DNA of 64,000 nucleotides from Bacteroidota bacterium (GTDB lineage Bacteria; Bacteroidota; Bacteroidia; UKL13-3): positions 62,001 through 126,000 of the forward strand of contig CANHVU010000006.1 of NCBI GenBank assembly GCA_947464275.1. Direction: 5' to 3'. This document shows positions 30,557 through 60,047 of the stretch, piece by piece. The notes under the pieces were generated by a model. The model was not told the origin of the DNA. It saw only the letters and a list, made by a program, of their open reading frames with translations, and searched no databases. The stretch's first letter is position 1. Each line of letters opens with the position of its first letter. The translations under genes were made by a program, and so were the position numbers.

Positions 30557-32392
30557 TTATTCTTTTATAATTTTCTTGAAGGTATCAACACCATTTATGC
30601 TAGCCTTAACAGTATAAAAACCGTTTGGTAAACTAGTAATATCAACATTTACAGTATTAGCATTTGGTGAAGTTGTTAATACAACCTGACCCAATGAATT
30701 GTAGATAGCAATATCTTGGATATTATTTTTAGTGATGATATTTAAATTATTGCTTGCAGGATTTGGAAAAACACCAATTGTTTCTGCATTTAGAGATGCA
30801 ATACTAGTTGTGGCTTTTTTGCTAAATAAAACATTATCAATGTAAACAATTGAAGTCCCTACAGGTGTGCTTGCAAAAATAAGTTGTGCAATATTCTTTT
30901 TAGTTGTAAGGCCTGTCATGCTCGATATTGACACTGCTACGTGATTCCAACCGTTTAAAGTCGGTGTGATGGTTGTTTCGTGTTCTTTATCATTACCACC
31001 ACCAATAACACCATCAGCACCTGCATCAACTAATTTGAACCTAAAAGCTGTAGAATTTGGCGTCCACATATCAAATTCAAATGAATCCATACCAGTTAAA
31101 TCAATTTGTTTTGTAATCGTTTCAATCCCAACAAAATCTAATCCAGTGTATTTTTTAACATCATCTGATCCAATTTTTGTTTCTGTATGTGTGCCATTAG
31201 ACCAAGAAGTTCTCCAAGTATCAACGGTTACATTGGTGTAAGCATTGCTAAACAATGAAATAACGTCTTTAGCTAGTTTTGTAGGAGTTTTTGCAGCAAC
31301 AGTTGGCTCAGCCAATACAGGTGCTTTACTAAACATAATATTATCCAAATAAACTATAGATGTACCTACAGGTGCACTTGCAAAAATAAGTTGTGCAATA
31401 TTTGACTTAGTAGTTAAGCCAGTAAAATTAGATATTGGCACCGATATATGATTCCATCCTTCTAATGTAGGAGAAACAGTAAGTTCATGCTCTTTATCAT
31501 CCCCACCTCCAATAGTTCCATTGGCTCCAGCATCAACTAATTTGAATCTAAAATTAGTAGAATTTGGCGTCCAAATGTCAAATTCAAATAAATCCATAGC
31601 GCTGATGTTAATTGGTTTTGCAATCATTTCAATACCAACAAAATCCAATCCAGAGTATTTTTTAACATCATCAGTGCCAATTTTCATTTCTGTAAGTGTA
31701 CCATTAGACCATCCTGTTCTCCAAGTATCAACAGTTACATTGGTGTAGGCGTTGCTAAACAACGAAATAACATCAGCAGCTGGTTTGGTTGGAGCCATGG
31801 CAGGCGTAGTTGGTTCAGCTAAAATAGTGCCACCAGAAAATGTAATATTGTCGAAATAAGAAATAGTAGTATCAGCTCTAGGATCACCACCAGGAATGAA
31901 ATCAGGGAATATTACAATTTGAGTAATATTATTTGATTCAGGGACACCTATTTTTGCAGAAAAGTCAAAAGTTAATTCTTCCCACTCATTGATTTTAGTA
32001 TTAGCTACTTTGATTTCGCCTGTAGACCCATTGGTGCTGTTAACGAATTTGATTCCAACATCGCTAATTCTAGTTTTGTACACCAAAATTTTCACTTTGG
32101 CATTTGATGCAGATAAAGAAAACGTACCAATATCTGAGCCTTTTGCAGACTCACATCCAGCCCACGGATTACCTCCTTTTAGTGCAGTAAATTTTGCTAC
32201 TTTACTGGAAGTGTTTGGAGCAACTGAACTTGGATTGTTTACAATTTCTAATGTTGGATTCGTGCCATTCTCAAAAGTTGTCCATGTCCAACTCGCACCT
32301 TGACCACCCGTTTCAAAATTAATTGGGGCGTTTTGAGAAAATCCTATGCTTGAAACAAGTAAGGATAAACTTAAAGTAATGATTTTTTTCAT
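30557..32392 (-). CDS. Secreted carbohydrate-binding-like protein with T9SS sorting domain
   Basis: 611 residues. Signal peptide about 1-20 (MKKIITLSLSLLVSSIGFSQ); an N-terminal jelly-roll-like domain (about 21-190, opening PINFETGGQGASWTWTTF) of the kind attached to GH16 glucanases; two nearly identical ~165-residue repeats (about 192-358 and 361-527, each containing DVISLFSNAYTNVTVDTWRT); and a T9SS type A tail (about 535-611, VFPNPASNNLNI). The same repeat type occurs in the lipoprotein at 44802-46223. No catalytic residues are seen, so it is probably a surface glucan-binding protein. It is divergent from the Nudix regulator, with a 21-bp inverted repeat between. Confidence 0.8.
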   Translation of the reverse strand: MKKIITLSLSLLVSSIGFSQNAPINFETGGQGASWTWTTFENGTNPTLEIVNNPSSVAPNTSSKVAKFTALKGGNPWAGCESAKGSDIGTFSLSASNAKVKILVYKTRISDVGIKFVNSTNGSTGEIKVANTKINEWEELTFDFSAKIGVPESNNITQIVIFPDFIPGGDPRADTTISYFDNITFSGGTILAEPTTPAMAPTKPAADVISLFSNAYTNVTVDTWRTGWSNGTLTEMKIGTDDVKKYSGLDFVGIEMIAKPINISAMDLFEFDIWTPNSTNFRFKLVDAGANGTIGGGDDKEHELTVSPTLEGWNHISVPISNFTGLTTKSNIAQLIFASAPVGTSIVYLDNIMFSKAPVLAEPTVAAKTPTKLAKDVISLFSNAYTNVTVDTWRTSWSNGTHTETKIGSDDVKKYTGLDFVGIETITKQIDLTGMDSFEFDMWTPNSTAFRFKLVDAGADGVIGGGNDKEHETTITPTLNGWNHVAVSISSMTGLTTKKNIAQLIFASTPVGTSIVYIDNVLFSKKATTSIASLNAETIGVFPNPASNNLNIITKNNIQDIAIYNSLGQVVLTTSPNANTVNVDITSLPNGFYTVKASINGVDTFKKIIKE

Positions 32393-32457
32393 ATGTAATT
32401 ATATTAATATATTTGTAAACGCAAGTAAAGCAAAAAAAGTTAAAGTAAAAAATACTA

Positions 32458-32478
32458 TAAGTAAATTTATTTTACTTA
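32458..32478. promoter_or_regulatory. 21-bp inverted repeat, candidate operator of the Nudix regulator
   Basis: TAAGTAAA (32458-32465), spacer TTTAT, TTTACTTA (32471-32478). It lies in the 109-bp gap between the divergent T9SS glucan-binding gene (start 32392) and the regulator (start 32502), the usual place for the operator of a local sugar regulator. AT-rich, so symmetry alone is not proof. Confidence 0.6.
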
Positions 32479-32501
32479 CAATTCTTCCGTTATTTTGCAA
32501 C

Positions 32502-33227
32502 ATGAAATCAACAAATGCTTACTATATATCCGACTATAATTTTCCAATCAGAGAGTACTTTGTTTTTGGTTTATCAGTTGACTGTGTAGTGTTTGGATAC
32601 CATGAAGGTGAGATAAAAGTATTGTTGGTGCAAAGAAGTTTGGAGCCTTTTAAAGATCATTGGGCCTTAATTGGAGACCTTGTAGAGCCTGACCAAAACT
32701 TAAGTGATGCCGCTAATAATGTGTTGGAAAAGCTCACTGGATTAAAAAATATTTACATGAAACAGTTTTTCGCTTTTGGAAGTTTAGAAAGACACCCGTT
32801 GGACCGAGTGGTTACAGTGGGTTATTTTTCATTAGTAAATAGTTTAAGCTATAATCCCATTGCATCGTCTTGGGCAAAATCCGCAGAATGGTTTAGTATA
32901 AATGAGTTGCCTGAATTGGCCTTTGACCACCAAAGTATTTTAGAAAAAGGCATAGAAACATTAAAAAATGAGGTTCGACATAAGCCTACAGGGTTTGAAT
33001 TGCTGCCAACTAAATTTACACTACTGGAACTACAATTGTTATACGAAGCCTTGCTAGGATATAAGTTTGATAAATCTAATTTCAGGAAAAAAATTCTCGA
33101 AATGAATATTTTACAACCGTTGAATGAGCTTAAAGAAAATGTTGCTCATCGTCCTGCCAAACTATTTAAATTTGATGAAAAAAGATACAAGGTACTAGAA
33201 GAAAAGGGCTTTTCTTTTGAACTTTAA
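32502..33227 (+). CDS. NrtR-type Nudix-domain transcriptional regulator
   Basis: 241 residues from ATG 32502 (an upstream ATG at 32346 overlaps the divergent gene and is unlikely). N-terminal Nudix domain (about 15-150, FGLSVDCVVFGYHEGEIKVL then LLVQRSLEPFKDHWALIG). The Nudix box is degenerate (G-D-L-V-E-P-D...N-N-V-L-E-K), with the catalytic Glu pair not conserved, as expected for a ligand sensor. A winged helix follows (about 160-235, PTKFTLLELQLLYEALLGY). NrtR-family members regulate NAD or, in Bacteroidota, sugar catabolism. Its position beside the beta-glucan locus suggests that it responds to a glucan-derived sugar. Confidence 0.85.
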   Translation: MKSTNAYYISDYNFPIREYFVFGLSVDCVVFGYHEGEIKVLLVQRSLEPFKDHWALIGDLVEPDQNLSDAANNVLEKLTGLKNIYMKQFFAFGSLERHPLDRVVTVGYFSLVNSLSYNPIASSWAKSAEWFSINELPELAFDHQSILEKGIETLKNEVRHKPTGFELLPTKFTLLELQLLYEALLGYKFDKSNFRKKILEMNILQPLNELKENVAHRPAKLFKFDEKRYKVLEEKGFSFEL

Positions 33228-33306
33228 GGAATAAGAAGTTATTAGTTTTACCAATAAATATTTTTCTATTTTAATTGTCATGACTTGCCCCAAAATCGAT
33301 GGAGGC

Positions 33307-34254
33307 CTATGTTGATTTTAACACTTTTGTGTATTCTTCAAAAACTAATTTAGGCGTCCTGTCTGCTTTAAACACTCCCCAATGCTTTTCAGGTTCCAAT
33401 GGATCTGGTGAACCTTTCCATTGTTCGTCAAATGCTTCGAAAAAGAAGGTTAATACATTATTTTTAAAAGACCATTCCATTAAGTCTTCGTAATAAATCT
33501 TCTGGTTCTCTTCATTCACATGTTCAACATGAATTCCCCTTCCATGCGAATTAGTAGCCCAGCCTGCTTCAGTAATTACTACAGGAATTTGAGGATATTG
33601 ATTGGCTACCATTTGATAGTTAGCAATGGTATAATCAACAGATTCGTTTATGTGTTTGTATTCCCAAACTGGATAGGTGTGTATTGAAATGAAATCTATC
33701 ACCTCTACAAGTGGTGCGAGGTAATTTAACCAGGGAACATAATTCTCGCAAAAGGTAACTGGTTGTTTAATACTTTTCTTCACTCTTTTTGCAAACTCTA
33801 TAACACGGTCAACAGGTACAAAATGATCCGTCCAGTCAACACAAGCTTCATTGCCAAGTGATACACAACAAATAATTTCAGTATATTGATTAGACCAATC
33901 GATTAGGATTTGAATTTTTTGGTCGTTCATTTTCCTATTTTCTTCCAGTTGCGTTTCCTCATAAATACCACCACCCCATGGGCAGCCATGGTTATTCAAT
34001 TCAGCTACGATGTATGCACCAAGCATTAATTTGAAGTCTAATTTTTCTTCGAGAATAACCTTGATTACAGTTAACGCGTGCTCATCACAATCATACAATC
34101 GCAGGTATTTACAATGAGGTGCTAAAAGCAGTAAATCTTCTTTTATTTCTTCGTAAGATGGCACAATTCCACCTGGTTGTTGTCCATTTCGAAAGCCAGA
34201 ATAACACATGGCTTTGGCAAATGGTAAATTAAATTGATTAAAAAAATCTGCCAT
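33307..34254 (-). CDS. GH17 beta-1,3-glucanase-like enzyme, signal-less (copy C)
   Basis: A 315-residue (beta/alpha)8 glycosidase of family GH17. Predicted acid/base E136 in SLGNEACVDW and nucleophile E229 in VVITEAGWATN. It starts MADFFNQFNLPFAKAMCYSG with no signal peptide, so it should be cytoplasmic. It resembles the GH17 lipoprotein (39091-40368) in its FFFEAFDEQWKG and HTYPVWEY motifs more than the adjacent copy B. Its start overlaps the stop of copy B by one base, indicating translational coupling; it is the last gene of the operon. Substrate probably short beta-1,3-gluco-oligosaccharides; transglycosylation is also possible in this family. Confidence 0.85.
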   Translation of the reverse strand: MADFFNQFNLPFAKAMCYSGFRNGQQPGGIVPSYEEIKEDLLLLAPHCKYLRLYDCDEHALTVIKVILEEKLDFKLMLGAYIVAELNNHGCPWGGGIYEETQLEENRKMNDQKIQILIDWSNQYTEIICCVSLGNEACVDWTDHFVPVDRVIEFAKRVKKSIKQPVTFCENYVPWLNYLAPLVEVIDFISIHTYPVWEYKHINESVDYTIANYQMVANQYPQIPVVITEAGWATNSHGRGIHVEHVNEENQKIYYEDLMEWSFKNNVLTFFFEAFDEQWKGSPDPLEPEKHWGVFKADRTPKLVFEEYTKVLKST

Positions 34255-35201
34255 TAAAATTTCAATTGTTCATGTTTATCCCAAAGTCCCCAATACGCTC
34301 CAACATCACCTTCCGGACCTGTTTTCCACGACTCATCAAAGGACGCAAAATAGAAGTTCTCAATACCATTTGACTTACACCAATTTTGGCAATCAATAAA
34401 ATAACGCATGGCATTTTCAGCATTTGCTACAGATCCTTTAAACGCACCTCCTTCGCTTGGCCAACCTGTTTCTGTAATAATTACTCTCTTACCTTGACCA
34501 GCATTTTTTGCAGATTCAAACATACTTCTCATGTGTTCAAAAGAATATTCAATAGGACATCCTTCCCAATAAGGGTAACAGTTTGTTAAAATCACATCAC
34601 ATATTTCTGTAATCATTGGTCTGTGAGAAAACTCGTAATATGCATCAACATAGCCCACAGGGATATGGGGAATAGCATCTTTTACTCGTTGGATATAGGC
34701 TAATAATTGCTCTTCAGTTAAATCTTTTCTATACATCACTTCATTACCTACAGCAGCAACATCAACCAATCCGTCTTTTGCCATAGCAATTAAACCTTCT
34801 ATTTCCTTTTCGTTCAATTCCAAGTCATCTCCTAACCATGCCCCTACAAGGGTTTTCATTCCATACTTTTTTGCTACTCTTGGCACATGTTCGTTTCCTT
34901 CAATACACGAGAAGGAGCGCACCCATTTGGCATAAGGTTGTAATATTTTAATACGCCTTTCTACTTGGGCTTCTGTAATGATTGAACCTGGCTTTTGTCC
35001 ATCTTCGTATATGCTAAAACAAATGCCATGTATCACATTTTGAAGTGTTTTGTGCCACAAACTTTTTAAATCATCCTTTGGCAGTTCAGAATAATTAATA
35101 TGAATATGTTGGTGTTGAAAATCAGAATCGTTTTCTTGTTGAATACGAGAATACTTCTCTTGATTCTGCGATGTAAATAAATGACCTTCTCTATATGACA
35201 T
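34254..35201 (-). CDS. GH17 beta-1,3-glucanase-like enzyme, signal-less (copy B)
   Basis: 315 residues: a polar ~45-residue N-terminal extension, then a GH17 barrel with acid/base E154 (VAAVGNEVMYRK) and nucleophile E244 (VIITETGWPSEG). No signal peptide. It is clearly paralogous to the GH17 domain fused to the transporter immediately upstream (shared GQKPGSI/GQKAGDI, KWVRSFSC/KWIRTFSC, GLVDVAAVGNEV/GLVDIAAVGNEV), which implies a local duplication. Eleven bases separate the two genes. Expected to act in the cytoplasm on imported beta-1,3-glucan oligosaccharides. Confidence 0.85.
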   Translation of the reverse strand: MSYREGHLFTSQNQEKYSRIQQENDSDFQHQHIHINYSELPKDDLKSLWHKTLQNVIHGICFSIYEDGQKPGSIITEAQVERRIKILQPYAKWVRSFSCIEGNEHVPRVAKKYGMKTLVGAWLGDDLELNEKEIEGLIAMAKDGLVDVAAVGNEVMYRKDLTEEQLLAYIQRVKDAIPHIPVGYVDAYYEFSHRPMITEICDVILTNCYPYWEGCPIEYSFEHMRSMFESAKNAGQGKRVIITETGWPSEGGAFKGSVANAENAMRYFIDCQNWCKSNGIENFYFASFDESWKTGPEGDVGAYWGLWDKHEQLKF

Positions 35202-35212
35202 GATATGTAGAT

Positions 35213-37567
35213 TTATTTTTTAAACTTGAATTTTTCGTTTTTATCCCATAATCCCCAAGATGTTCCCAATTTACCTTCTTGAATAACTTTCCAAGATTCA
35301 TCAAAAGAAGAGAAATGAAATAGTTCTATGTTATTACTTTTTGCCCATTCTTGCGAACTGATAAAAAATTTCATTGCATTAATTCTTGATGGCATAGCAT
35401 TTTCTACTGTTTCTCCAAAACTAGGCCATCCTGTTTCTGTAATAACTATTCTTTTATCCTTACTCACTTCTTTGGTAACCTCAAGCATATTTGAAAGATA
35501 AGATGATGAATAATCAATGACAGCACCTTCCCAGAAAGGATAGAAATTACATAAAATTAGGTCACAAGCATCCACAAGTTTTGGTCTTTCAATAAATTGA
35601 TAATATGCATCTACATAGCCCACTTCAATATTACTTGGAATGGCGTTTTTTACTCTTTTTATGTATTCAATTAATTCTGCCTCAGAAATCTCGCCCCTGT
35701 GTAATACTTCATTACCCACAGCTGCAATATCCACCAAGCCAGCATTTGCAAGTTTTATTAATGCGTTTATTTCTTTTTCATTTCGCTCTTTATCATTGCT
35801 TATCCATGCTCCAACAACTGTTTTAATGTTTTTTTGGTGCGCAATTTCTGGTATCAATTCATTTCCTTCTGTGCATGAAAAAGTTCTAATCCATTTGGTG
35901 TGAGGTGCAATAATTTCTAATCTTCTTCTTATCTGTTCGGCTGATAAAATATCGCCCGCTTTTTGACCTTCAATATAAGGACTAAAACATAATCCATTTA
36001 AACCAGTATTAAATTGCTTAGAAAATAGGGTTTCTATTTCTTCTTCGCTTTTTGAACTTAAATCTGTTCCAACCAGCTTATTAATTAAAGATTCACTATT
36101 AGATAAAGAAAGTAATTTGCCAGTGAGATAATTGGATGATTGCTTATTTACTGAAGGTTTTTTCCTTTTTTCTAAAAGATCTCTTACTTCTAGTGCTTTT
36201 GCTTCATCAATATCATAATCTTTCATTGCCCAAATAGCAGCCAATGTTCCTAATATTGGAATTCCAACAAAGAAGATTCTTAACCAAAACATAGTTTCAT
36301 CTGTTTGGGTAGGTGCATTAGATTTAAAACTAACAAAAGTGAGAATTAAACCACTTAATAATCCCGCTACGGCAGTTCCAAATTTTACCATCCACCAATA
36401 GATAGCCCCCAAACTTCCTTCTCTTCTTTTTCCAGTATTTAATTCATCAATATCAATTACATCAGAAGTCATAGACATCATGAGAGTAAACAAACTTCCA
36501 ATACCAAATGCAAAAAAAGGTAATGCAAAAAGAAAAAGATAAGGTTTCCCCGGAACAAAAAGTATCCACAATAAAATATAACCAAATACTGAAATGCTTT
36601 GAGAAACTAAAAATGCCTTCTTTTTTCCCATTATTTTAGACATTCTAGCAACAATTGGTATTACAATAACTGTAGTAATCATAGCTCCCACACATCCAAA
36701 TAATGTTGGCCATAATCCAAAACCGTCTTCATTTCCTTTGAACAAATAATATTTGATGATAAAATAAGAAAAACCTGCTGTGGTTTGAAAAGCATTAAAA
36801 ATTAAGAAGGTTGCAATACAAATTTTTCTGAATGGTTTAATTTCTGCCGAAGCTTTTAATCCTTCTTTGATTTCTCCAAAACTGCCCAAGATTCCTTTAA
36901 AATCAATTGGGCTATAATTTTCGTTCAATGTAGATTTACTTGGAATAAAGAAAGCTGGTATGGCTGCTAAAATGGTACATCCAATTGCAACGTACACCGA
37001 TAAAGTTCTAACTGCTACATCGGTTGATGGAAACAAAGATTCATCAGCCATTATTACCCAAAACCAAGGAGCAACAACCCAAGCTAACTGACCAATAAGT
37101 TGGGAAGTAGCCATGATATTTGTTCGTTCATGAAAATCATCACTCATTTCGTAACCCATTGCTACATAAGGAATACTAAATATGGTAAGTCCTGAATAAA
37201 AAATCAATGAAACAACTAAAAAGTACCAAAAATTGTAAGTAACACCATTTTCAGCATACAATTGCCACATTAATGAAAATGAAATACCTAAAATAATGGC
37301 ACCTGCCAATACATATTGTCTTCTTCTACCCCATTTTGATTTGGTATTATCACTTACATAACCCATTATAAGGTCAAATAAGGCATCATAAAACTTCGGA
37401 ATAAAATAGGTTAACCCAAGTAACAACCCACTAAAGCCAAGTTTTTCTACCAATACTACGGTAAAAATACCAATCATTGCAGGGAACATTTGGTTTGCAA
37501 GCATACCCAATCCGAAGGCGATTTTTTGCCCCATGGGCACTTTTTGTGATGAAATTTGATTGGACAT
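35213..37567 (-). CDS. MFS/GPH-type sugar transporter fused to a GH17 glucanase domain
   Basis: 784 residues in two modules. Residues 1-455 are a 12-helix glycoside-pentoside-hexuronide-type symporter (KFYDALFDLIMGYVSD near 58-73 and KWGRRRQYV near 78-86 are the loop 2-3 signature). A linker (455-520) leads to a complete GH17 domain (521-784) with acid/base E620 (AAVGNEVLHRG) and nucleophile E711 (ITETGWPSFGE). Transporters of this class have cytosolic C-termini, so the glucanase should sit at the inner face of the membrane, cleaving oligosaccharides as they enter. No frameshift or stop is seen at the junction. The last module duplicates copy B downstream. Confidence 0.9.
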   Translation of the reverse strand: MSNQISSQKVPMGQKIAFGLGMLANQMFPAMIGIFTVVLVEKLGFSGLLLGLTYFIPKFYDALFDLIMGYVSDNTKSKWGRRRQYVLAGAIILGISFSLMWQLYAENGVTYNFWYFLVVSLIFYSGLTIFSIPYVAMGYEMSDDFHERTNIMATSQLIGQLAWVVAPWFWVIMADESLFPSTDVAVRTLSVYVAIGCTILAAIPAFFIPSKSTLNENYSPIDFKGILGSFGEIKEGLKASAEIKPFRKICIATFLIFNAFQTTAGFSYFIIKYYLFKGNEDGFGLWPTLFGCVGAMITTVIVIPIVARMSKIMGKKKAFLVSQSISVFGYILLWILFVPGKPYLFLFALPFFAFGIGSLFTLMMSMTSDVIDIDELNTGKRREGSLGAIYWWMVKFGTAVAGLLSGLILTFVSFKSNAPTQTDETMFWLRIFFVGIPILGTLAAIWAMKDYDIDEAKALEVRDLLEKRKKPSVNKQSSNYLTGKLLSLSNSESLINKLVGTDLSSKSEEEIETLFSKQFNTGLNGLCFSPYIEGQKAGDILSAEQIRRRLEIIAPHTKWIRTFSCTEGNELIPEIAHQKNIKTVVGAWISNDKERNEKEINALIKLANAGLVDIAAVGNEVLHRGEISEAELIEYIKRVKNAIPSNIEVGYVDAYYQFIERPKLVDACDLILCNFYPFWEGAVIDYSSSYLSNMLEVTKEVSKDKRIVITETGWPSFGETVENAMPSRINAMKFFISSQEWAKSNNIELFHFSSFDESWKVIQEGKLGTSWGLWDKNEKFKFKK

Positions 37568-37578
37568 AATCTATGTTA

Positions 37579-39084
37579 TTAATTTTTAATTACTATTGTT
37601 TGTAATGCTTTTGAATCTATGGTAATCGTTTTTACTTCCTTGTTGATGTTGATTGCAATATTGTATTTTTTATCTGTTGGGTTAAATAAAGCAACAACAA
37701 TGCTTCCATCAGGATTTTGAACAGCGGTAGTCATTACTTCTTTGTGATTTATTTCGCAGCCAATTTTAACAGCTCCTGGTCGCATGAATTTACTAAAATG
37801 TGCCATTATAAAGTACAATGGTGTAAAATACACTTCATCTTTTTCTTCATCAACAATTACAGGAGCAACACACCAATTTTTAAACCAATTAGGCCCTCCT
37901 TGTTTGTTTAAAACCATGTTCCAATCTACCCAACCATCTACATAATTATTCAAACAGCCTATTATGTCTGTTGCATATCTATTTACTGGTGCATATTTTG
38001 GGTGTAAATGACGGTCTTTTTCGCTTGCCCAATCCCAACCCCAATCGGTGGCTTCTTTTTGCCAATACCATTTGTCGTCTTTCCACTTTGGGACCTCAGA
38101 ATCTACACAACCTTCGGTCTCTATTAAGTATTTATTAGGTGCTTTTTTGTGTGCATATTGAAGCGCATCTGGAAAATAATCGTAGGTGCTTTCATACCAG
38201 TGAACGGCTACACCCGCATAATATTTTGATGATTTTTCATCTCTGTACATTTCATCAACCCATTCTTTTAGGCCAGCTCTGTTTTGGTCGTAACCAAAAA
38301 TGTTTACTTTACCCCAATTGTCTTTCTCCAACTTTGGCCCTAAATGATTTTGAACAAAATCAGTCATCTCTTTTGGTGAAAACAAGGTGCTTTCCCAGTT
38401 ATTTCCGTTTCCATGTGGTTCATTAATTACGGTTACGCCCCAAATATCAATTCCTTCTTTTTTATAAGCCGATAAATATTTAGAAAAGTACAAAGCAAAA
38501 GCATCATTAAATTGAGGTAATAACTTTCCGCCTACATAACTTTTATTGTCCTTCATCCAAGGTGGTGCTGTCCATGGAGAGGCTATGATTTTAAATCCTT
38601 CTTTTGATGTTTTATTGGCATCTAAAATCATCGGAATTAAATCAATTTTATCATCTTCAATGGAAAAATGTTTCATTTCCAAATCGTTTTCAACTTTGGC
38701 ATAAGTATAGTTACTTAACGAAAAATCGCACGATGCAATATGTGTTCTGGTAAGCGAATAGTTTGCGCCTTCTTCACTAAAATAAGCGTCTAATATTTTT
38801 TTTCTGTTTGTTAGGCTCAATTTATTTAACAAATGAGCCGATGCCTCAGTAAATGAACCACCAAATCCTGTAATTTTTTGAAATTGCTCGGCTGGATTTA
38901 CCTTTATTGTTAAAGATTCGTCAGCGGGTTTAAAATCTTTAATAAGGGTAAATGCATTTCCGTTTTCTGAGGTTTCATATACATCAATATTCATTTTTTT
39001 TGCATTATTACATTGAATAAGCGCAGCGCAAATCATCCCAATAAAGATGGTTTTTAAGGAGTATAATTGCTGTTTGGTATTCAT
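37579..39084 (-). CDS. GH30 family glucosidase/glucanase lipoprotein
   Basis: 501 residues. A signal peptide ends in ALIQC (lipid-modified C25). The GH30 catalytic barrel opens with QKITGFGGSFTEASAHLL (about 69-86), has acid/base E222 in WGVTVINEPHG and nucleophile E324 in LIETEGC, and ends with the typical C-terminal beta domain. GH30 members of this type cleave beta-1,6- or beta-1,3-glucosyl bonds; in a laminarin locus the likely task is removal of beta-1,6 branches. Probably periplasmic or outer-membrane anchored. Six bases separate it from the GH17 lipoprotein gene upstream, 11 from the transporter fusion downstream. Confidence 0.92.
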   Translation of the reverse strand: MNTKQQLYSLKTIFIGMICAALIQCNNAKKMNIDVYETSENGNAFTLIKDFKPADESLTIKVNPAEQFQKITGFGGSFTEASAHLLNKLSLTNRKKILDAYFSEEGANYSLTRTHIASCDFSLSNYTYAKVENDLEMKHFSIEDDKIDLIPMILDANKTSKEGFKIIASPWTAPPWMKDNKSYVGGKLLPQFNDAFALYFSKYLSAYKKEGIDIWGVTVINEPHGNGNNWESTLFSPKEMTDFVQNHLGPKLEKDNWGKVNIFGYDQNRAGLKEWVDEMYRDEKSSKYYAGVAVHWYESTYDYFPDALQYAHKKAPNKYLIETEGCVDSEVPKWKDDKWYWQKEATDWGWDWASEKDRHLHPKYAPVNRYATDIIGCLNNYVDGWVDWNMVLNKQGGPNWFKNWCVAPVIVDEEKDEVYFTPLYFIMAHFSKFMRPGAVKIGCEINHKEVMTTAVQNPDGSIVVALFNPTDKKYNIAININKEVKTITIDSKALQTIVIKN

Positions 39085-39090
39085 TATTTA

Positions 39091-40368
39091 TTAATTTTTT
39101 AATTCAGGTATTATAACAGTTTTTAATAAGTCTACTTCACTACCATTATGCGTTTTAACAATGGTTTTCCCATCTCGTTTCAAATCTTTAAAAATGCCTT
39201 GATCTATCTTTTCCCATAAGGCATATTTGGCCTTTCCATCAATAGTAAATAATCCAAAATGATTCTCGGAACCTTTTGGGTTATTGGCATCTTTCCATTG
39301 CTCATCAAATGCCTCAAAATAAAAACAAGTAATTTTTTCTTGATTCGTCCATTCACGCATTAATTGATAATACTTTGCAGATTTATATTCATCACAAGCT
39401 TTTGAGCCATTGTTTCCATACAAACCATCGGAGCTAGAAGCCCAACCCGTTTCACCAATATGAATTGGTTTATTTATTCCAATAGATTTCATATAATTTG
39501 ATACACCAAGAAATTGCTTTTTTGCATAATTTAATGAACGCATCATCAAAGAATCTACTTTTTCCCTATGTGCCAAAGCTTCTTCCTGCTCGCTTAAACC
39601 CCAAAAAACCGGATTATAATGGGTGTCGTGCATTGGATAGGTATGAATGGAAACATAATCTACTGCTTCATATAATTTAATTAAATCATTTACATGATAG
39701 GTAGAATCTCCACCGCCCCAAGAAGCAAAATTATCGGAAGAAGTAATCCATACATCTTTGGGTAAACTATTTTCCTTTTTTAACTTTTGTAAATAGGTAA
39801 CCCATTTCAAAATGATATTAGGTTCAACATAATAACTAGCTGCCCACTTTACCATGGCTTCATTGCCCACAGCAATTATTTTTATAATTTCAGGATATTT
39901 GTTTGCAAGTTCAACAGCTCTTTGAATCTCCTCGGTATTAGCTTTCGTGTTTTCTTTGTTATGATTAGGTGTCTTCTCTGTCCAAGCATTTTCGCAATCA
40001 ATCCAAGCACCAAGCATAACATACATTTCAAAATCGGGATTTTCGACACGCAACTCGGTTATTGCCTGCATCAAATTTCTTACTTCATAATACTTTGTAT
40101 TATAAGTGCGGAGCAATTTAATACCCATCGCACTCAGTATTTTCATGTCTTCTTTAATTTGAGAAACAGAGGGCTGCGAATCACGCGTATTTGAGCGATA
40201 ACCTCCATAACATGTTGCTTGGTAGTTTGAATCACCTAAAATTTGAGCGGCCGTTTTTGTTTTCTCCAATTGAGTTGAATTTTCTTTGGTAGCGTTTTGA
40301 GAGCCACACGAAGTTAGCATAACAGTTAAAAGCACTAAAAAATAATATGTTAGACCAACTTTTCGCAT
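39091..40368 (-). CDS. GH17 beta-1,3-glucanase lipoprotein
   Basis: 425 residues. Lipobox VMLTSC (lipid Cys21). The GH17 domain begins near ATCYGGYRSNTRDSQPSVSQ (about 51-70), with acid/base E170 (IIAVGNEAMVKW), nucleophile E306 (HIGETGWASS) and the late FYFEAFDEQWKD. It should work in the periplasm or at the outer membrane, shortening beta-1,3-glucan chains before import. Only two bases separate it from the phosphorylase-like gene upstream. A short C-terminal extension (about 385-425) follows the barrel. Confidence 0.92.
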   Translation of the reverse strand: MRKVGLTYYFLVLLTVMLTSCGSQNATKENSTQLEKTKTAAQILGDSNYQATCYGGYRSNTRDSQPSVSQIKEDMKILSAMGIKLLRTYNTKYYEVRNLMQAITELRVENPDFEMYVMLGAWIDCENAWTEKTPNHNKENTKANTEEIQRAVELANKYPEIIKIIAVGNEAMVKWAASYYVEPNIILKWVTYLQKLKKENSLPKDVWITSSDNFASWGGGDSTYHVNDLIKLYEAVDYVSIHTYPMHDTHYNPVFWGLSEQEEALAHREKVDSLMMRSLNYAKKQFLGVSNYMKSIGINKPIHIGETGWASSSDGLYGNNGSKACDEYKSAKYYQLMREWTNQEKITCFYFEAFDEQWKDANNPKGSENHFGLFTIDGKAKYALWEKIDQGIFKDLKRDGKTIVKTHNGSEVDLLKTVIIPELKN

Positions 40369-40370
40369 GA

Positions 40371-43300
40371 TTACTTCAATATTGATTCTTTGATATATAC
40401 AGTAATTTTAGCTACTTCACCTGTTCTATTAAAGATTTGTGTACTTGTTTCTGCATCAAGGTACAGGGTATCATGTTTACTTAAACTACCATCTTTCTTT
40501 TCAATTTCAAGACGATTTTCATTTGATAAACAATAAATGACTGGAACTTGGCAAACAGTAAAACAAAGTGAGCCAAGCGCAGGTGCAAATGTTTTATGTT
40601 CCTTATTTATGGTAACGTAATGAAACAAACGGTCTTCTGTTGTAAACTCGTTTTTTCTTAATAAACATGGATTAAAATACAAACGACCATTGGAAACAAA
40701 AACACCCAATTCGCCAAATCTACTAAGAATGTCTTCTTTTACCTGGCCTGTCATGCCTGGTTGTTGCGCTCCTCTGTTAGCCGGAGTGTGAGAGTATGGA
40801 TCGGTAGGAAATGCACCGTAAAGTGATGGCGATTTGTGCACACCAACGCCTGCATTTATTTCGTAATAATGCTCCAATAATTTTCCAATTACCTCGGCAC
40901 TTTCTTCTTTTTCTATTGCTTGCAAACATACTTCTTGCACAGCCAATTGCAGTTTAGAAACCATGTGCCAGTAAATAGAGCCTAGACCTTCGTAGCCATA
41001 AAATGTACCAGAACGGCCAGTAAATGATTTGTGGTCAAAAACTAATTCAAAAGTATCTAAAAGAGCTTTCTTTTCACTTTGAATGAACAGACTATACTTT
41101 GTATTCTCTAATTTTACAATGGCATCACTCAAATCGCCAGCATTTTTAAAGTTACCGTTAAAATGGTAATCTCCTTTTATGTCTTGCTCTACGAGCGATT
41201 TATCACCATCAGCTAACATTGCATTGATAAGTTTCGATTCTTTTAAGGCTTCTTTTGGGATATTGTTCTTCTCTAAAAACTTAGGAAGTTGTTTATTTGG
41301 ATAAAGCAAATAGCTATATTGATCCGGACGGAAAAGCGCGCTATTCTTCATACTATCCAATAGTTTTAAGGCATCCTTTGGAGATAGGTAACCCGAACTT
41401 AATACAGCAACTTGGCCTTCGAGCATTTCATTGAGGTAAGAAATAGAAATTTCTTTTTTGTTTCGTATGCTCATCAAATTATAAGAATGATACATCTCAT
41501 CATCACGCTTATTGGCTTTGATGGTATGTTCTATAAACTGTAAACTTACTTTGGCAAATGCTTTAAGCCTACGGTATGAAATTGTTCTTTTCTCTCCCCA
41601 AAATGATTGTTTGTAAATATGTTCTCTGTAATCACTTCCTGCTTGACCTAAACTATCAAGAATTGCTTTGCGTTGAGCATCATTGATGTCATTTTTTAAC
41701 AATGCTGCATGTTCATCAAAAGTTGAATGTAATTTTTTAAAGAAGATAATTAATTCATTTGATACCTCAACGCGATCTTCATCCGCTGTTTGTTCAAGAA
41801 GCTTATCAAAAAACACAAGGAACCTTCGCAGGTAGCATAGGGTTACAACGGAAACACCATTCCCTACAAGTGCATTGTTTGCATCATTCCATTCCGGCCT
41901 TTGGGTATTCATCCAAATTCCGCCACCGGGAATAAAATTGGAGAGCTTAGACAAAACAGTTGCTAATATTTTCTCTATAAAATTTACAGAATAAATTTTT
42001 CCTTTTTGGTCTTCCAAAAGTGTAGCGTCAGAACCTATTAAATCACGCTTTTTTCTGATTTTTGCATCTAACGCTTCCTCAAACTCTATGGTATCTTTTG
42101 CATTGTTTACAATTTCGTTATAACTCTTTATTTTGTAAGGAACATTGGCATATACAAAAAGGTCTTGATTAAAATGGCTACTTAATTGGCCAGGAAAATA
42201 CTTCTCATTAATTTCCAATAATTTTAACAAGTATATAATCTGATGATCTCCCCAATAACCAATATAAGACCATGGATTGTCTGGCTCTACTGTTTCCCAA
42301 TCAAAACCACTTTTAGTTAACCTATATGGATTATAGCCTTCAAAAGTAGTTGCATTTAAAAACTTGTGAACCATACTCTTGGTAAAGGCAGGGTAAGAGA
42401 TTGCCAATGCCTCCCAGTTTTGAAAAATATCTCTCCAGTTGCCTTCGTAATCCAGTACCTTTGAGTGGTCCACTGCGCTGCGGGTATTAATAGAAAATTT
42501 ATTCCAAGGTCTGCTTGGATCACCATGCCTTCTGCTAAATTTTAAAGGCATGTATTCTATACAAATTCTATTAAAATTTTTATCATCGGTTTGAGATGAA
42601 ATTTTTTCTAATTCAAAAAACGAAAAGGTTTCATTCAAGCTATCCAGTAATGTCTTGTGTTTTTCGTAAACTTCTTTGTTTGTTCCAACAAAATAGTTAA
42701 TCAAATCCCATTTTTCAATCTGGTAATTAAAATCAAAAATGCCGCCTCGCATGATATTGAAAAGGGTATTGGAAAAATGTCGTGTATCCCTATATACATC
42801 ATCCGACAATTGGATGCCATCAGATGAAGCATTGAGCTCAATTAATCGTTGAGAACCAAGTTCTATGTCGTCTTCTACCAGTTTTCTAATTTCTTTATTG
42901 GTTTTAATCTCATTGATTAATCTAACAACATCGGCCTGGCTTTGGTTTACATCAGCTATAATCAGCCAATTTTTTTTATTCCCAGGGGATAAGGTAATTT
43001 CCTTGTTAATAAAATAAGATCCTTTTTCAGCTTTAACATCTTCTTCTTGACCAATACCTAATCCCTTTCTAAAATCATCAAGTTGCAAAGAAGATACTAA
43101 ATATTTTGGATTATCAAGTCCAAGAGACCAAGCAATGTTGGCTTTAAGAGCTTCACTAGGTTCAGCTTTATCTACTATAATCGCACTAAGGGCAAATATT
43201 CCCATCCCTGAACCCGGATCTAATTCATTTCTCTTGTAGGCATCAACAAGATTACTAGCAGCGTTTTGTAAATCACTACTCACACCATCTGGCATTATAT

Positions 43301-43826
43301 TTTGTATGCCATCTAGAAAATTAATTTTGAGTTCTTTATCTCCTATATTTTCTATAGTAGATTTACGAACAAAGCCATAAATATTGCTGGAGTTCCATTC
43401 ATATCTAAATGTAAGTCCAAGATTATGATTTATTTCTTCAAAAATGATTTTATTACCAATAGCATTTTTATACAAGTTTCTAGAGACATGAAATTCGCTT
43501 TCATTTCGTTCAGAAAATGGTTCCCATATATGGATTTCGCCATTTTGAATTACTTGAAATATTGACTTAGAACCAGTAATGTCGTATGATTCAGTAATTT
43601 TATCGACAGTGTAATAAGGAAATAATGCAAACTCAGCACTCTTACGTCCAGCAGTAATTCCCCCATTACTGGATATAAACATCCAATGGTGAGAATCGCT
43701 TACTATACTCATAAAAAATGGACGCATTTCATTATTGTTTGAAATGCAAAAGAAGTTTTCTCCTTCTATTTTTAATCTCTTTATTTCTACTAAAGATTCT
43801 TGTTCGACTTGTTTTTGTCCAGACAT
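40371..43826 (-). CDS. Putative beta-1,3-glucan phosphorylase (GH94/GH149-like)
   Basis: 1151 residues, no signal peptide, so cytoplasmic. The N-terminal beta-sandwich opens with FFCISNNNEMRPFFMSIVSD and HHWMFISSNGGITAGR, as in GH94-type phosphorylases. The helical barrel carries GIWMNTQRPEWNDANNALVG near residue 645, where the W-N-D is the expected general-acid motif. The C-terminal region has a putative phosphate-binding SHTPANRGAQQPGMTGQ (about 1012-1028). Length and neighbours (GH16, GH17, GH30) point to GH149-like beta-1,3-oligoglucan phosphorylases, releasing glucose 1-phosphate. Family assignment is inferred from memory of motifs; GH94 or GH161 are alternatives. It heads a six-gene, tightly packed operon. 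Confidence 0.6.
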   Translation of the reverse strand: MSGQKQVEQESLVEIKRLKIEGENFFCISNNNEMRPFFMSIVSDSHHWMFISSNGGITAGRKSAEFALFPYYTVDKITESYDITGSKSIFQVIQNGEIHIWEPFSERNESEFHVSRNLYKNAIGNKIIFEEINHNLGLTFRYEWNSSNIYGFVRKSTIENIGDKELKINFLDGIQNIMPDGVSSDLQNAASNLVDAYKRNELDPGSGMGIFALSAIIVDKAEPSEALKANIAWSLGLDNPKYLVSSLQLDDFRKGLGIGQEEDVKAEKGSYFINKEITLSPGNKKNWLIIADVNQSQADVVRLINEIKTNKEIRKLVEDDIELGSQRLIELNASSDGIQLSDDVYRDTRHFSNTLFNIMRGGIFDFNYQIEKWDLINYFVGTNKEVYEKHKTLLDSLNETFSFFELEKISSQTDDKNFNRICIEYMPLKFSRRHGDPSRPWNKFSINTRSAVDHSKVLDYEGNWRDIFQNWEALAISYPAFTKSMVHKFLNATTFEGYNPYRLTKSGFDWETVEPDNPWSYIGYWGDHQIIYLLKLLEINEKYFPGQLSSHFNQDLFVYANVPYKIKSYNEIVNNAKDTIEFEEALDAKIRKKRDLIGSDATLLEDQKGKIYSVNFIEKILATVLSKLSNFIPGGGIWMNTQRPEWNDANNALVGNGVSVVTLCYLRRFLVFFDKLLEQTADEDRVEVSNELIIFFKKLHSTFDEHAALLKNDINDAQRKAILDSLGQAGSDYREHIYKQSFWGEKRTISYRRLKAFAKVSLQFIEHTIKANKRDDEMYHSYNLMSIRNKKEISISYLNEMLEGQVAVLSSGYLSPKDALKLLDSMKNSALFRPDQYSYLLYPNKQLPKFLEKNNIPKEALKESKLINAMLADGDKSLVEQDIKGDYHFNGNFKNAGDLSDAIVKLENTKYSLFIQSEKKALLDTFELVFDHKSFTGRSGTFYGYEGLGSIYWHMVSKLQLAVQEVCLQAIEKEESAEVIGKLLEHYYEINAGVGVHKSPSLYGAFPTDPYSHTPANRGAQQPGMTGQVKEDILSRFGELGVFVSNGRLYFNPCLLRKNEFTTEDRLFHYVTINKEHKTFAPALGSLCFTVCQVPVIYCLSNENRLEIEKKDGSLSKHDTLYLDAETSTQIFNRTGEVAKITVYIKESILK

Positions 43827-43862
43827 TATTTGGTATCTATATCGTAGTTATTTATATTTATA

Positions 43863-43894
43863 ATAGTAGTTTTTTTACAAAAATCAACTACTAT
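43863..43894. promoter_or_regulatory. Inverted repeat around a putative promoter of the phosphorylase operon
   Basis: Arms ATAGTAGTT (43863-43871) and AACTACTAT (43886-43894). On the minus strand the loop holds GATTTTTG, one base from the -7 consensus, with a TTG 21 bases further upstream. The arrangement looks like an operator overlapping a promoter, 37 bp before the start at 43826. Tentative. Confidence 0.4.
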
Positions 43895-43947
43895 GAAATT
43901 CATATTCAATTGATAATTAGTAAAGGTTTGTTGGTGCTAAATTTATA

Positions 43948-44763
43948 TTATTTTTCTTTGTAAGCTCTAACATAATCAATGGTCATTGCACAAGGAAATG
44001 GGGTAAATTCGTTAGTTGGCCCTACAAAACCTCCTCCAACTGCTACATTCATAATGATGAAAAATGGTTGATTGTAAACCCATTGCCCAGGAACATCGGC
44101 AGGGGTAATTCTTTTGTAAAGATAACCATCTACAAAAAAATCAATTTTGCTTGCATTCCATTCAACAGCATATATATGAAAATCGTTATCGAATCTATCA
44201 TTCTTAAGTTCGTATGCTGTAGTTATAGATTGGCTACCTGAATAACCTGGTCCGTGAATAGAACCATAAGTAAAATTTGAAAATTTACCCTTTTGTTCCA
44301 TAATATCAATTTCTCCGCATTGAGGCCAGTCTGCAGTTGCTAAATTCTCACCTAACATCCAGAATGCAGGCCATATTCCAGAGCCTGTTGGTGTTTTTAT
44401 GCGAGCTTCTACTTTACCAAATTGATGAGAAAATATGCCTTGGGTTTTTACACGTGCCGAGGTATAACTTCCCGAATTGCTTTTTATGGCTGTAATCACA
44501 AGATTTCCTTTTCCGTCCAAAGATACATTTTGAGGGTTTTTGGTGTAAGATTGAAGTTCACCATTACCCCATCCACCATTACCGGTTCCTAAATCATAAG
44601 TCCATTTTGCTGCATCAGCAGCGGTGCCAGAATCGCCTATAAACTCATCACTCCAAACCAATTCAAAGTTTCTATTTGGCAGGGATTGTTTTGGTTCTAT
44701 TTCACAGCCCGCAATAATGGCAACTATTGTTGCCATCAGTATTGTTTTATTTGAAATTTTCAT
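43948..44763 (-). CDS. GH16 beta-glucanase (laminarinase-type) lipoprotein
   Basis: 271 residues. Lipobox AIIAGC (lipid Cys20). The jelly-roll GH16 domain starts NFELVWSDEFIGDSG and carries the catalytic signature GEIDIMEQKG with nucleophile E151, D153 and acid/base E156; the extra Met in the motif marks the beta-1,3(4)-glucanase/laminarinase branch. It also shows WPAFWMLGEN and ends MTIDYVRAYKEK. An endo-acting enzyme, probably displayed on the outer membrane, that opens long glucans. Third gene of the upstream transcription unit, 38 bp after the carbohydrate-binding lipoprotein gene. Confidence 0.95.
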   Translation of the reverse strand: MKISNKTILMATIVAIIAGCEIEPKQSLPNRNFELVWSDEFIGDSGTAADAAKWTYDLGTGNGGWGNGELQSYTKNPQNVSLDGKGNLVITAIKSNSGSYTSARVKTQGIFSHQFGKVEARIKTPTGSGIWPAFWMLGENLATADWPQCGEIDIMEQKGKFSNFTYGSIHGPGYSGSQSITTAYELKNDRFDNDFHIYAVEWNASKIDFFVDGYLYKRITPADVPGQWVYNQPFFIIMNVAVGGGFVGPTNEFTPFPCAMTIDYVRAYKEK

Positions 44764-44801
44764 TATTCAATTATTTAATAAATTTTACCTGTTATAATTT
44801 T

Positions 44802-46223
44802 TTATTTATAGAAATAAATATTATCGAGGATGAAATTAGGACCACCAATAATAATAATTGCTCCTATATTACTTTTTTGGTTTAGAATATTCCCATTAAG
44901 TGGAATATCAAACGACTTCCAACCACCTGCTGTAAATCCATTTAAAGTGGTTCTTAAATCCTTGTCATCGCCCATTGGTTGGCCATTAGCTGTGTTGGTC
45001 TCAATAGTTTTATTAGCACCTATATCTCTAATTTCAAATCCAATAGAAGAAGTAGTTGCATCCTCAACATATACATCTACATGTAAAAATCCATATGCAG
45101 TAAGGTCAATAGGATTTGTATCAAACATTATTCCTGTATAATTATTAGTTTTATATTGTATTACTTTACCAGTACTTGTTGTTAAAATATCCGCCACTGT
45201 TGTAGAACCTCCGAACCTTGGATCAACATTGCTTTCGGTTGCATTGGTGTATGCATCACTAAAAATAGACTTTACATCGGCCTGCGGTCTAGTTGGCGTG
45301 GGTGCTCCTGGAAAACCTCCTTTTGACTCAATAATTAGTTTTCCTTTTGCAGGCAAACCATTTACTGTTGCAGTAATTTCTGCATTTCCAGCTGTAAGAA
45401 TTCTAACAATTCCCGAATCATTAACAGTAGCAACAGCCGGATTTGAACTGGTAAAATTATAATAAGCAGTAGTTGACATTACTTTTACATCCTGTCCGTT
45501 AGTAAGGTTAAAAACATGGTTTAAACCAGTTAGATTTATAGTAGAACCAATAAAGGTTTTTTCTGTTTTGGTTTGACCATCAAATATGTTTGAGGCCGCT
45601 TTGCCTACTGTTCCAAGTTTTTCAAATTTTATTTCATCAAACCAAAGAGCATAACCTGCACCATTTGTTCCTTGAGTTCCAGCAGCAAACCAAAAAACAC
45701 CTCTTTCATTTTTAAGTTTAGAAGCACTAGGAATAGGAATAATTACTTTAGACCAATTGGTACTTACATTTATATTTGAGACAGAAACTTTATATTTATC
45801 ATCAATGTAGTTTACACCAAATCCTGCCTCACCCAATTTTATACCTGTAGATGCTTTTACGTAAAAAGTTAGCGCATCATAACCTGTTAGATTTCTACCT
45901 GCACCATCAACTCTAAAAATGGCTCCAGCGTATGTACCTTTTGGATCTGTATTATTGGGTACATCTATTCTTACAGAAGCATTGCTTTGGTAACCTTCTT
46001 TCATATCTACCGAAAATACATCTGGTTTTGCATCTGCAAATGGAAGATAAAAATCAGAGCCTAAACCTATAAAGTTATCTGTAAAAATACCTGCAGTTGA
46101 AGAAAAAGAAGGCAATACTGCATCATCAGATAATTCTCTTTTACATCCAAATTGAACAATAAATAATGCAAATAAGAGACTTATAGATATAATTTTTTTG
46201 TTTAAAATATTCATTTTTTTCAT
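44802..46223 (-). CDS. Glucan-binding-type lipoprotein with Ig-like (Big_2) domain
   Basis: 473 residues. Lipobox VQFGC (lipid Cys27). Domains: a beta-sandwich of carbohydrate-binding character (about 45-200), a bacterial Ig-like group 2 domain (about 215-295, with VATVNDSGIVRILTAGNAEI), and a C-terminal beta-sandwich (about 305-473) containing PQADVKSIFSDAYTNATESN, homologous to the duplicated units of the T9SS protein at 30557-32392. No catalytic motif is seen. It probably captures beta-glucan at the surface, taking the place that SusD-like and surface glycan-binding proteins have in ordinary PULs. Confidence 0.75.
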   Translation of the reverse strand: MKKMNILNKKIISISLLFALFIVQFGCKRELSDDAVLPSFSSTAGIFTDNFIGLGSDFYLPFADAKPDVFSVDMKEGYQSNASVRIDVPNNTDPKGTYAGAIFRVDGAGRNLTGYDALTFYVKASTGIKLGEAGFGVNYIDDKYKVSVSNINVSTNWSKVIIPIPSASKLKNERGVFWFAAGTQGTNGAGYALWFDEIKFEKLGTVGKAASNIFDGQTKTEKTFIGSTINLTGLNHVFNLTNGQDVKVMSTTAYYNFTSSNPAVATVNDSGIVRILTAGNAEITATVNGLPAKGKLIIESKGGFPGAPTPTRPQADVKSIFSDAYTNATESNVDPRFGGSTTVADILTTSTGKVIQYKTNNYTGIMFDTNPIDLTAYGFLHVDVYVEDATTSSIGFEIRDIGANKTIETNTANGQPMGDDKDLRTTLNGFTAGGWKSFDIPLNGNILNQKSNIGAIIIIGGPNFILDNIYFYK

Positions 46224-46244
46224 TTTTAATAAGTGCTAGATTTA

Positions 46245-49200: not shown

Positions 49201-49358
49201 GGAAAATAATCCCAATTCATTCCATTAATGAACGTCTCTTTCCCATTTACAGAAAGTTTAAATCCATTATCAGATTTAATAACTAGCACTTTATCATTTT
49301 GCGCAAATGCTAAAGTAGATGTAAGAAATAAAAGGCACTGAAGTAGTAGTTTTTTCAT
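46245..49358 (-). CDS. Clan GH-A glycosidase fused to a predicted outer-membrane beta-barrel
   Basis: 1037 residues from ATG 49358, chosen over an ATG at 49382 because it opens a signal peptide (MKKLLLQCLLFLTSTLAFAQ). Residues about 22-410 are a (beta/alpha)8 glycosidase with acid/base Glu in FLLGNENNYG (about residue 168) and nucleophile Glu in VVLTEFGADAY (about 269), distantly like GH2 or beta-glucanosyltransferases. From about 440 on, the protein is a series of amphipathic beta strands (for example FGGKVKLTYSTGSIQWYGLA, then YNVLTGLTYNIGKFQIAPNF) ending EWEFRTYIQININ, as expected for a porin-like barrel. No family name was recognised. It heads the locus. Confidence 0.7.
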   Translation of the reverse strand: MKKLLLQCLLFLTSTLAFAQNDKVLVIKSDNGFKLSVNGKETFINGMNWDYFPIGTNYNYSLWKQSDEVIIAALEIEMPLLKNMGVNVIRQYTGVPAKWVKYIYENYGIYTMLNHAFGRYGLTVKGKWEPNTDYSDPNVREILLNETKEMVSQYKETPGVLLFLLGNENNYGLFWRGAETENIPLADRNSTKGAYHLYKLFNDAAKALKQIDNNHPISICNGDLLFADIIAKECKDIDILGINCYRGSTFTDLYERVKKELNMPVVLTEFGADAYNTLANKEDQEYQAKVLLSNWKEIYNNASGMGKNENSLGGFTFQFSDGWWKTGQTINLDEHDATASWSNGGYRNDFVKGENNMNEEWFGICAKGQTNELGTYELYPRAAYYALQNIHQFNPYTANAESINILFKNVSVADATLRARGDKAVLESKDKGKLYLSNLQANFNTYQTGGSLISTPAAANPASTTFPNEQGFDHMESFNIGVTARPAPNMRANVQFNLLGNVATKPIDEIFYENRGRPLTVQTTNGLQQINSNNRIQLYRASYTWDAQEFKLLGFYRTGHYHWAYEGDFFGLYREANYGPNIDIYNGNAPFGFEVEAKKILKGLKIAFGPELWWGANPAFLAKYSRKLVGLDVTGIFHEDLVQRSGLQSSFAVPVPKTRRLTLAISKKMEKLTFDVGGIWAGQPLNGRTFQMIQDDIVYEDKIKSTDNFGGKVKLTYSTGSIQWYGLASYMGLVANGGVDQTKTFTGWVLKDIGSGNMYNVLTGLTYNIGKFQIAPNFLYQKPLVGPIGPNFAAPARPRNILDDPFSVRGNRETLGGELLLTFDPTPATWMYEWDNDRMEDAKFAMSTGFVYRHLPTVQDAAIGILGNGRTTFGFPGSAPAQDLWEVNSRMVSKINPEFGIIGNVYFGNGQANGSDTRTINRYGIDVRTIYKKMKLITMVKIDDWGPFDYHRDFNQTFPLQVIADWSVEIGKPDWFMLPGTKLGVRTTYRTLNKYSNRYAPTTKIDRLGEVVPDPNAIGFPDGNEWEFRTYIQININ

Positions 49359-49382
49359 TTTGTAACGATTTTGTTTACACAT

Positions 49383-49835
49383 AAGCTTTGATTTTTTTTA
49401 TTTTATGTACTTAATAGTTTTTTATGCATTTTTTTAATCGAAATTGTTCATCAAAATATTGATTTTAAATTTAATTATGGTAAAATTTACCACAACCAAT
49501 ATAGCAAAAAAAATTATCTACAAAATTTTTTTTGTTTTTTTTGATGATGTAAATTTTCTACTTGTACCCTATCTTAATTCTTTTTTACCCCCTTCAATAC
49601 ATTCGCTCAATATTTTTTATTTATAAAAACACTACAACATTACTAATATGAATTAGTGTTATTTTTTGATTTTTAAATAGTTATATGATTGTTGTTTTCC
49701 CTATTTCTTATGCTCTTATTTGGAATGGAAAGTTATGTTTTCAATTTGTTCTTCGTTTTAATCAGACAGTTTACAAAACAAACGTTCTAATCTGTAACAT
49801 TTTGCCCTGCTTCATTTCTATAGATTTAAACAAAA
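49383..49835. other. Intergenic region upstream of the glucan locus
   Basis: No gene supported. It should contain the promoter of the minus-strand operon starting at 49358. A perfect 15-bp palindrome TGGTAAAATTTACCA lies at 49478-49492 and shares GTAAA/TTTAC half-sites with the inverted repeat at 32458-32478. Short frames in this AT-rich stretch (49444-49626, 49685-49873) have no coding features. Confidence 0.5.
49478..49492. promoter_or_regulatory. 15-bp palindrome upstream of the barrel-fusion gene
   Basis: TGGTAAA-A-TTTACCA, perfectly symmetrical around the central A, 120 bp before the start at 49358. Possible second operator of the locus; weak on its own. Confidence 0.35.
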
Positions 49836-50630: not shown

Positions 50631-50640
50631 ATGTTGTTTG

Positions 50641-60039: not shown

Positions 60040-60047
60040 TCAAAAAA

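Follow-up and report, generated by a model that had tools for sequence, protein, structure and literature searches.

The window analyzed here is a 64-kb stretch of a 3.4-Mb assembly (genome G000, contig C6, positions 62001-126000) whose close kin are labelled Bacteroidota, and ten minus-strand ORFs fill positions 30557-49382 of it (Table 1). Nine of these, from 49382 to 33307, follow one another in the same direction, separated by -1 to 121 bp, and look like a single operon (33307-49382, minus strand). In order of transcription they encode the following: an enzyme-barrel fusion, a Big_2 lipoprotein, GH16, GH149, GH17, GH30, an MFS-GH17 fusion and two further GH17 proteins, with four GH17 domains in all by profile search. 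Downstream of the operon are a NUDIX/NrtR/AraR-type regulator, which is the sole plus-strand gene in the block and sits between its last two minus-strand ORFs, and a T9SS-tailed repeat protein. An earlier sequence-only reading of the window had described ten minus-strand genes with GH16, GH30 and four GH17 domains, all of which were confirmed by profile and PDB searches. Its end point for the locus, position 49358, corresponds to the second Met codon of the fusion gene, and a start there is plausible.

Table 1. Features of the beta-glucan locus, listed from the candidate operator towards lower positions (positions are those of the window).
Feature	Position	Strand	Basis or remark
Perfect 15-bp palindrome TGGTAAA-N-TTTACCA, candidate operator	49478..49492		~100 bp upstream of operon
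Enzyme-barrel fusion, 1045 aa	46245..49382	-	Domains by profile search, predicted structure
Big_2-containing lipoprotein, putative surface glucan-binding	44802..46223	-	Profile; acidic lipobox signal in homologues
GH16 endo-beta-1,3-glucanase lipoprotein, probably cell surface	43948..44763	-	Profile and PDB search; lipobox signal
GH149 beta-1,3-oligoglucan phosphorylase; cytoplasmic, lacking a signal peptide	40371..43826	-	6HQ6, NF058639
GH17 endo-laminarinase lipoprotein, FbGH17A (6FCG) counterpart, probably periplasmic	39091..40368	-	Profile, PDB search
GH30 lipoprotein, likely beta-1,6-glucosidase (FbGH30 analogy), probably periplasmic	37579..39084	-	Profile
MFS_2/GPH (MelB-like) sugar symporter with C-terminal GH17, the latter probably cytoplasmic	35213..37567	-	Profile, PDB search
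GH17 without signal peptide; closest relative of known structure: beta-1,3-glucanosyltransferase 4WTP	34254..35201	-	
GH17 without signal peptide; closest relative of known structure: 6FCG	33307..34254	-	
NUDIX/NrtR/AraR-type transcriptional regulator; probably starts further downstream	32346..33227	+	
T9SS-secreted protein, repeated modules related to Big_2 lipoprotein; putative glucan binding	30557..32392	-	

Close relatives carry the palindrome at the equivalent place, in either perfect or degenerate form (tRGTAAAyTTwACCATAATTA). It is important to note that the pattern with three mismatches occurs in the window at chance-level frequency, and it is the perfect copy and its conservation that are notable. 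The NUDIX regulator adjoins the operon in three other loci, and in other lineages its place is taken by a Y_Y_Y/LuxR-type regulator, as in the Muricauda laminarin cluster, which likewise has a LuxR regulator (PMC13188888). The ~1.2 kb upstream of the operon (49390-50640) has no intact ORF and many stops in three-frame translation, and is possibly a decayed gene; beyond it lies a HipA_2-like kinase with a small adjoining gene (50641-51793). Elsewhere in the window are an SprA_N-containing protein of 2422 aa (10928-18196), a T9SS translocon component that is consistent with the T9SS-tailed proteins of the window, a CcoN-CcoO type fusion (COX1 and FixO in a single ORF, 24538-26664), and DabA next to a Proton_antipo_M protein, probably a pair for DAB-type inorganic carbon uptake, with a sulfate-permease family protein after it (57541-61916).

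The phosphorylase, earlier read as GH94/GH149-like, matches the NCBIfam GH149 equivalog NF058639 over its full length (1758 bits, cut-off 1150) and the GH149 structure 6HQ6 (1639 bits), and the GH94 part of that designation was dropped. The lipoprotein GH17 matches Formosa FbGH17A from end to end (6FCG, 568 bits), the GH16 matches solved beta-1,3-glucanases in the PDB search, and the GH30 family assignment was confirmed by profile and PDB searches. Two proteins of glucan-binding type had also been proposed, and profile searches identify them as the Big_2 lipoprotein and the T9SS-tailed repeat protein, both putative in this role. All operon neighbours of the enzyme-barrel fusion are laminarin-type enzymes, one of them the FbGH17A counterpart, and the set as a whole is the Formosa laminarin set (PMC6246565), including the GH149, GH16, FbGH17A-type GH17, GH30 and MFS-GH17 fusion of a variant 1 laminarin PUL. 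We consider it very likely that the locus has a catabolic role on beta-1,3-glucan.

The sequence-only reading had also singled out two unusual fusions, both of which are real: an MFS_2-GH17 protein and a GH-A domain joined to an outer-membrane barrel, the latter widely conserved. In the first, the MFS_2 domain aligns with MelB along its whole length, and the GH17 domain, like the first free GH17, is nearest to a beta-1,3-glucanosyltransferase. The C-termini of MelB-type carriers are cytoplasmic, and a basic tail follows the last helix of the carrier and leads into the GH17 domain, so this domain should be cytoplasmic and therefore act after import. The earlier description of a transporter-glucanase at the inner membrane thus stands with regard to the fusion, with the side of its enzyme corrected to the probable cytoplasmic one.

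In Bacteroidota, surface lipoproteins are marked by acidic residues directly following the lipidated cysteine. To assign the lipoproteins to a side of the outer membrane, we counted proteins with at least two acidic residues at positions +2 to +7, a rule applied with a rough script rather than a trained predictor. The signal was present in six of seven SusD proteins, which served as the positive control, in 58 of 73 Big_2 lipoproteins and in 66 of 87 GH16 proteins, as compared with 6 of 45 GH17 and 5 of 26 GH30 proteins. The GH16 and the Big_2 binding lipoprotein are thus probably outside the cell, and the GH17 and GH30 lipoproteins probably in the periplasm. The GH149 and the free GH17s have no signal peptide and are probably cytoplasmic.

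The enzyme-barrel fusion consists of a signal peptide, a GH-A domain (residues ~29-400), a two-helix linker (408-438) and an outer-membrane beta-barrel (441-1044). The best structural matches of the GH-A domain are GH158 beta-1,3-glucanases (Z 26.3, 286 residues aligned, 3.1 A), with GH5 mannanases no more than 1 Z unit behind and GH2 enzymes no more than 2. Sequence support for GH158 was weak (phmmer E 1e-4; profile E 3e-4 to GH158(Pro)), and the TIM domain also matches GH2_C weakly in the profile search. Across 61 sequences neither of the candidate catalytic residues, E176 and E277, varies, nor does the N-E pair at 175-176, which fits the expectation for a retaining GH-A enzyme. Both domains of the fusion are under purifying selection relative to the sister genome G004 (dN/dS ~0.06 each), and a PHROGs search gave no match for the fusion or for the Big_2 lipoprotein. 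As to its side, the glucanase is probably periplasmic by homology with relatives that lack the barrel (described below): among the five of these with a lipobox only one has the acidic signal, and the absence of that signal from the other four, together with the position of the first barrel strand directly after the linker, argues for the periplasm.

The C-terminal part of the fusion is predicted to be a transmembrane outer-membrane beta-barrel. Modelled alone (residues 401-1045), it gave a structure of middling confidence (pLDDT 78, pTM 0.74) in which the ~600-residue region forms ~20 or more strands, and the model matches outer-membrane barrels, including AlgE (Z 13.6), MOMP, OprD-type porins, TonB-receptor barrels and ushers. 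Plug and CarboxypepD_reg domains were not found in the fusion by profile search. Many polar and aromatic positions of the barrel region are invariant.

Two other roles for such a barrel have to be weighed at this point. Classical autotransporters have a passenger-then-barrel order, with a translocator of ~12 strands and ~300 residues. The fusion shares that order, and its barrel could in principle export the glucanase to the cell surface in the same fashion, with the enzyme acting outside; we consider this improbable, given that a barrel region of ~600 residues matching 18- to 24-strand barrels fits poorly with a translocator of that kind, and that the barrel-less orthologues mostly have periplasmic-type lipoprotein signals. 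The other role follows from the match to AlgE, the alginate exporter, which ranks first, level with porins, among the VIA matches of the barrel, and from the fact that the GH16 also matches SKN1/KRE6 in the profile search: the locus might make or remodel beta-1,3-glucan and export it through an AlgE-like channel. We regard this as very improbable, as the operon has no glycosyltransferase, its GH149, MelB-like symporter and FbGH17A/GH30-type enzymes indicate catabolism, and the Formosa counterpart is induced by laminarin (PMC6246565).

The fusion spans the Bacteroidota, nearly always within the same operon. A scan of 84,980 species genomes yielded at least 535 stretches encoding relatives, the best 80 of which have 60-92% identity, are mostly full length and are nearly all labelled Bacteroidota; the full fusion is present in ~10% of a 296-genome spread sample of the phylum. 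Among 107 distinct fusion loci, synteny could be judged in 95, and in 89 of these the lipoprotein and then the GH16 directly follow the fusion. Within the 68 loci that have 7 kb on both sides, a GH149 is present in 56, an FbGH17A-type GH17 in 41 and a GH30 in 42. Two homologues lie on contigs labelled Chlorobiota and Acidobacteriota (L076, 1-3889, and L117, 2605-5739, respectively), which may reflect transfer or mis-binning. In a further locus (L131, 4482-13827) an MFS gene, three GH17 genes and a GH149 gene adjoin a distant (27% identity), barrel-less relative of the GH domain, another arrangement of the same pathway.

That the window holds no SusC/SusD pair, as the sequence-only reading had stated, was borne out: profile searches (SusD_RagB, SusD-like_2, SusC and a four-sequence laminarin-type SusD profile), on which the genome-wide statements here also rest, gave no SusC or SusD match on the entire contig C6, hence none linked to its CAZymes. 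Genome-wide, only one complete SusCD pair was found (contig C20), which is that of a starch locus because it is adjoined by an alpha-amylase and a CBM48/CBM20 protein, along with a single SusC cut short by the end of contig C47, for which no partner was seen and of which the sister genome has no close counterpart; no laminarin-type SusD was identified. At 96.8% completeness in 68 contigs, the assembly makes a strong, if not absolute, case for absence of a laminarin SusCD. Of the ten members of the window's family that were tested, the window genome among them, nine gave no match to the laminarin-type SusD profile at E<1e-40; G011 was the exception. Two genomes, G010 and G032, have neither a SusD match nor a SusC at E<1e-40, and the cultured Flavobacterium strains of loci L068 and L118 have no laminarin-type SusD match, with other SusC genes present. 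Flavobacterium gelidilacus DSM 15343 and F. lotistagni CYK-4 are culturable environmental strains in which the fusion occurs with no such SusD match.

Linkage of fusion and SusCD does occur, in 4 of the 107 fusion loci (L093, L135, L136 and L164, the last three all from one family of the window's class) and in 3 of the 68 with 7 kb on both sides. The proposal of an alternative layout to the SusCD PUL therefore held for the locus, which lacks the pair, but not in the strict sense: given the four loci that carry both, the barrel need not replace SusCD.

A comparison within one family, f55, bears on the same question. Four of its genomes encode the full fusion, with no SusCD at the locus (L137-L140), and five the GH domain alone. 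Three of the barrel-less loci (L128, L141 and L144) have the order SusC-SusD-GH16-GH-GH149 or parts thereof, in a fourth genome SusCD is on the contig that carries the GH gene, ~15 kb from it, and the fifth locus is cut by a contig end. In a tree of the GH domain the barrel-less clade nests inside the fusions, as sister to those of f55 (SH-aLRT 97), and the barrel was thus most likely lost. The comparison first looked like a clean swap of barrel for SusCD, a reading weakened by an orphan laminarin-type SusCD that three of the four genomes with the fusion have at another place. For the same reason the pattern, which fits redundancy between barrel and SusCD, is supportive of a shared role but not decisive.

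Alternatively, the barrel might be a mere anchor for the glucanase, with oligosaccharides entering by general porins, the starch SusCD or the truncated SusC. Linked SusCD coexists with the fusion in G330, G157, G207 and L093, where SusC may do the uptake, and the window genome itself holds the starch pair and the C47 gene. Nevertheless, we think an anchor unlikely: a lipid anchor would do, as in the barrel-less orthologues, ~600 conserved residues with so many invariant polar and aromatic positions would be a costly substitute, and SusCD was not found in G010 and G032. On balance, we favour uptake through the barrel with the glucanase on the periplasmic side, a reading that we hold to be somewhat more likely than not and in which both elements are inferred.

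Under the favoured reading, the operon would serve the use of beta-1,3/1,6-glucan (laminarin type), with an enzyme-porin fusion in place of SusC/SusD at the outer membrane. The surface GH16 and the glucan-binding lipoprotein would cut and hold the polymer, and oligosaccharides would enter via the plugless barrel, at whose periplasmic mouth the attached GH158-like glucanase may cut the chains and so prevent back-diffusion. Periplasmic GH17 and GH30 would complete the shortening and debranching, and the MelB-like symporter would take small oligosaccharides into the cytoplasm, where the fused GH17, the two free GH17s and the GH149 would rearrange and phosphorolyse them to glucose-1-phosphate. The broader proposition is that of a phylum-wide, TonB-independent beta-glucan route, in which a self-processing porin, with the enzyme at its periplasmic mouth driving inward flux by cleaving the chains that enter, can substitute for SusCD; we put this forward tentatively, as a serious possibility that we would not yet call probable.

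Laminarin is among the largest carbon flows between algae and bacteria, and there is a proposal to read glycan use from the expression of SusC/SusD (PMC6298971). If the fusion carries uptake in many Bacteroidota, SusCD-based surveys overlook them, and a gene filed as GH0 or GH2 would be the outer-membrane step. The fusion would also be unusual in that a channel is covalently linked to the enzyme that uses up what it lets in.

The suggestion that the system as a whole was undescribed did not hold. The MFS-GH17 fusion (FbGH17b), the enzyme cascade and its induction by laminarin were reported for Formosa in 2018 (PMC6246565), and SusCD-less clusters appear in two further reports, as GH149 CAZyme clusters without susCD in some Bacteroidetes (2018, PMC5827456) and as a variant 1 laminarin PUL lacking the usual susCD in the NS4 MAG W_MB115 (2023, PMC10108472). 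What seems to have been overlooked is that the unassigned glycosidase of the locus is covalently joined to a predicted outer-membrane barrel and takes the place usually held by SusCD; open-licence full-text literature gave no description of such a fusion in laminarin loci.

The locus can be compared with several known systems. With SusC/SusD, the fusion would share the point of the pathway at which it serves, but its barrel has no plug, there is no SusD-like lid and it would be independent of TonB. The GH158 endo-beta-1,3-glucanases (BuGH158, GH158(Pro)) share the GH-A fold and are the best structural match to its enzyme domain, whereas they have ~20% identity to it with a weak sequence score and lack a barrel. 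The clusters of PMC5827456 likewise combine GH149 with GH17/GH16/GH30 without susCD, and the accessible part of that paper names no outer-membrane component. The Formosa-type variant 1 or variant B laminarin PUL (PMC6246565, PMC6298971, PMC10108472) has GH149, GH16, FbGH17A-type GH17, GH30 and MFS-GH17 in common with the locus described here, but usually has a linked susCD, which is missing here, and a barrel on its GH0 enzyme goes unmentioned in the available text of these papers. The GH0 gene without family assignment that is listed for variant 1 PULs in PMC10108472 is probably this enzyme-barrel fusion. The cluster of Muricauda lutaonensis (PMC13188888) comprises a GH2-annotated gene, GH16, GH149, GH17A, GH30_1, MFS, GH17B and the LuxR regulator, with MFS and GH17B as separate genes where they are fused here; its GH2 gene, at a comparable position, is probably the enzyme-barrel fusion as well, because the TIM domain of the fusion has the weak GH2_C match noted above.
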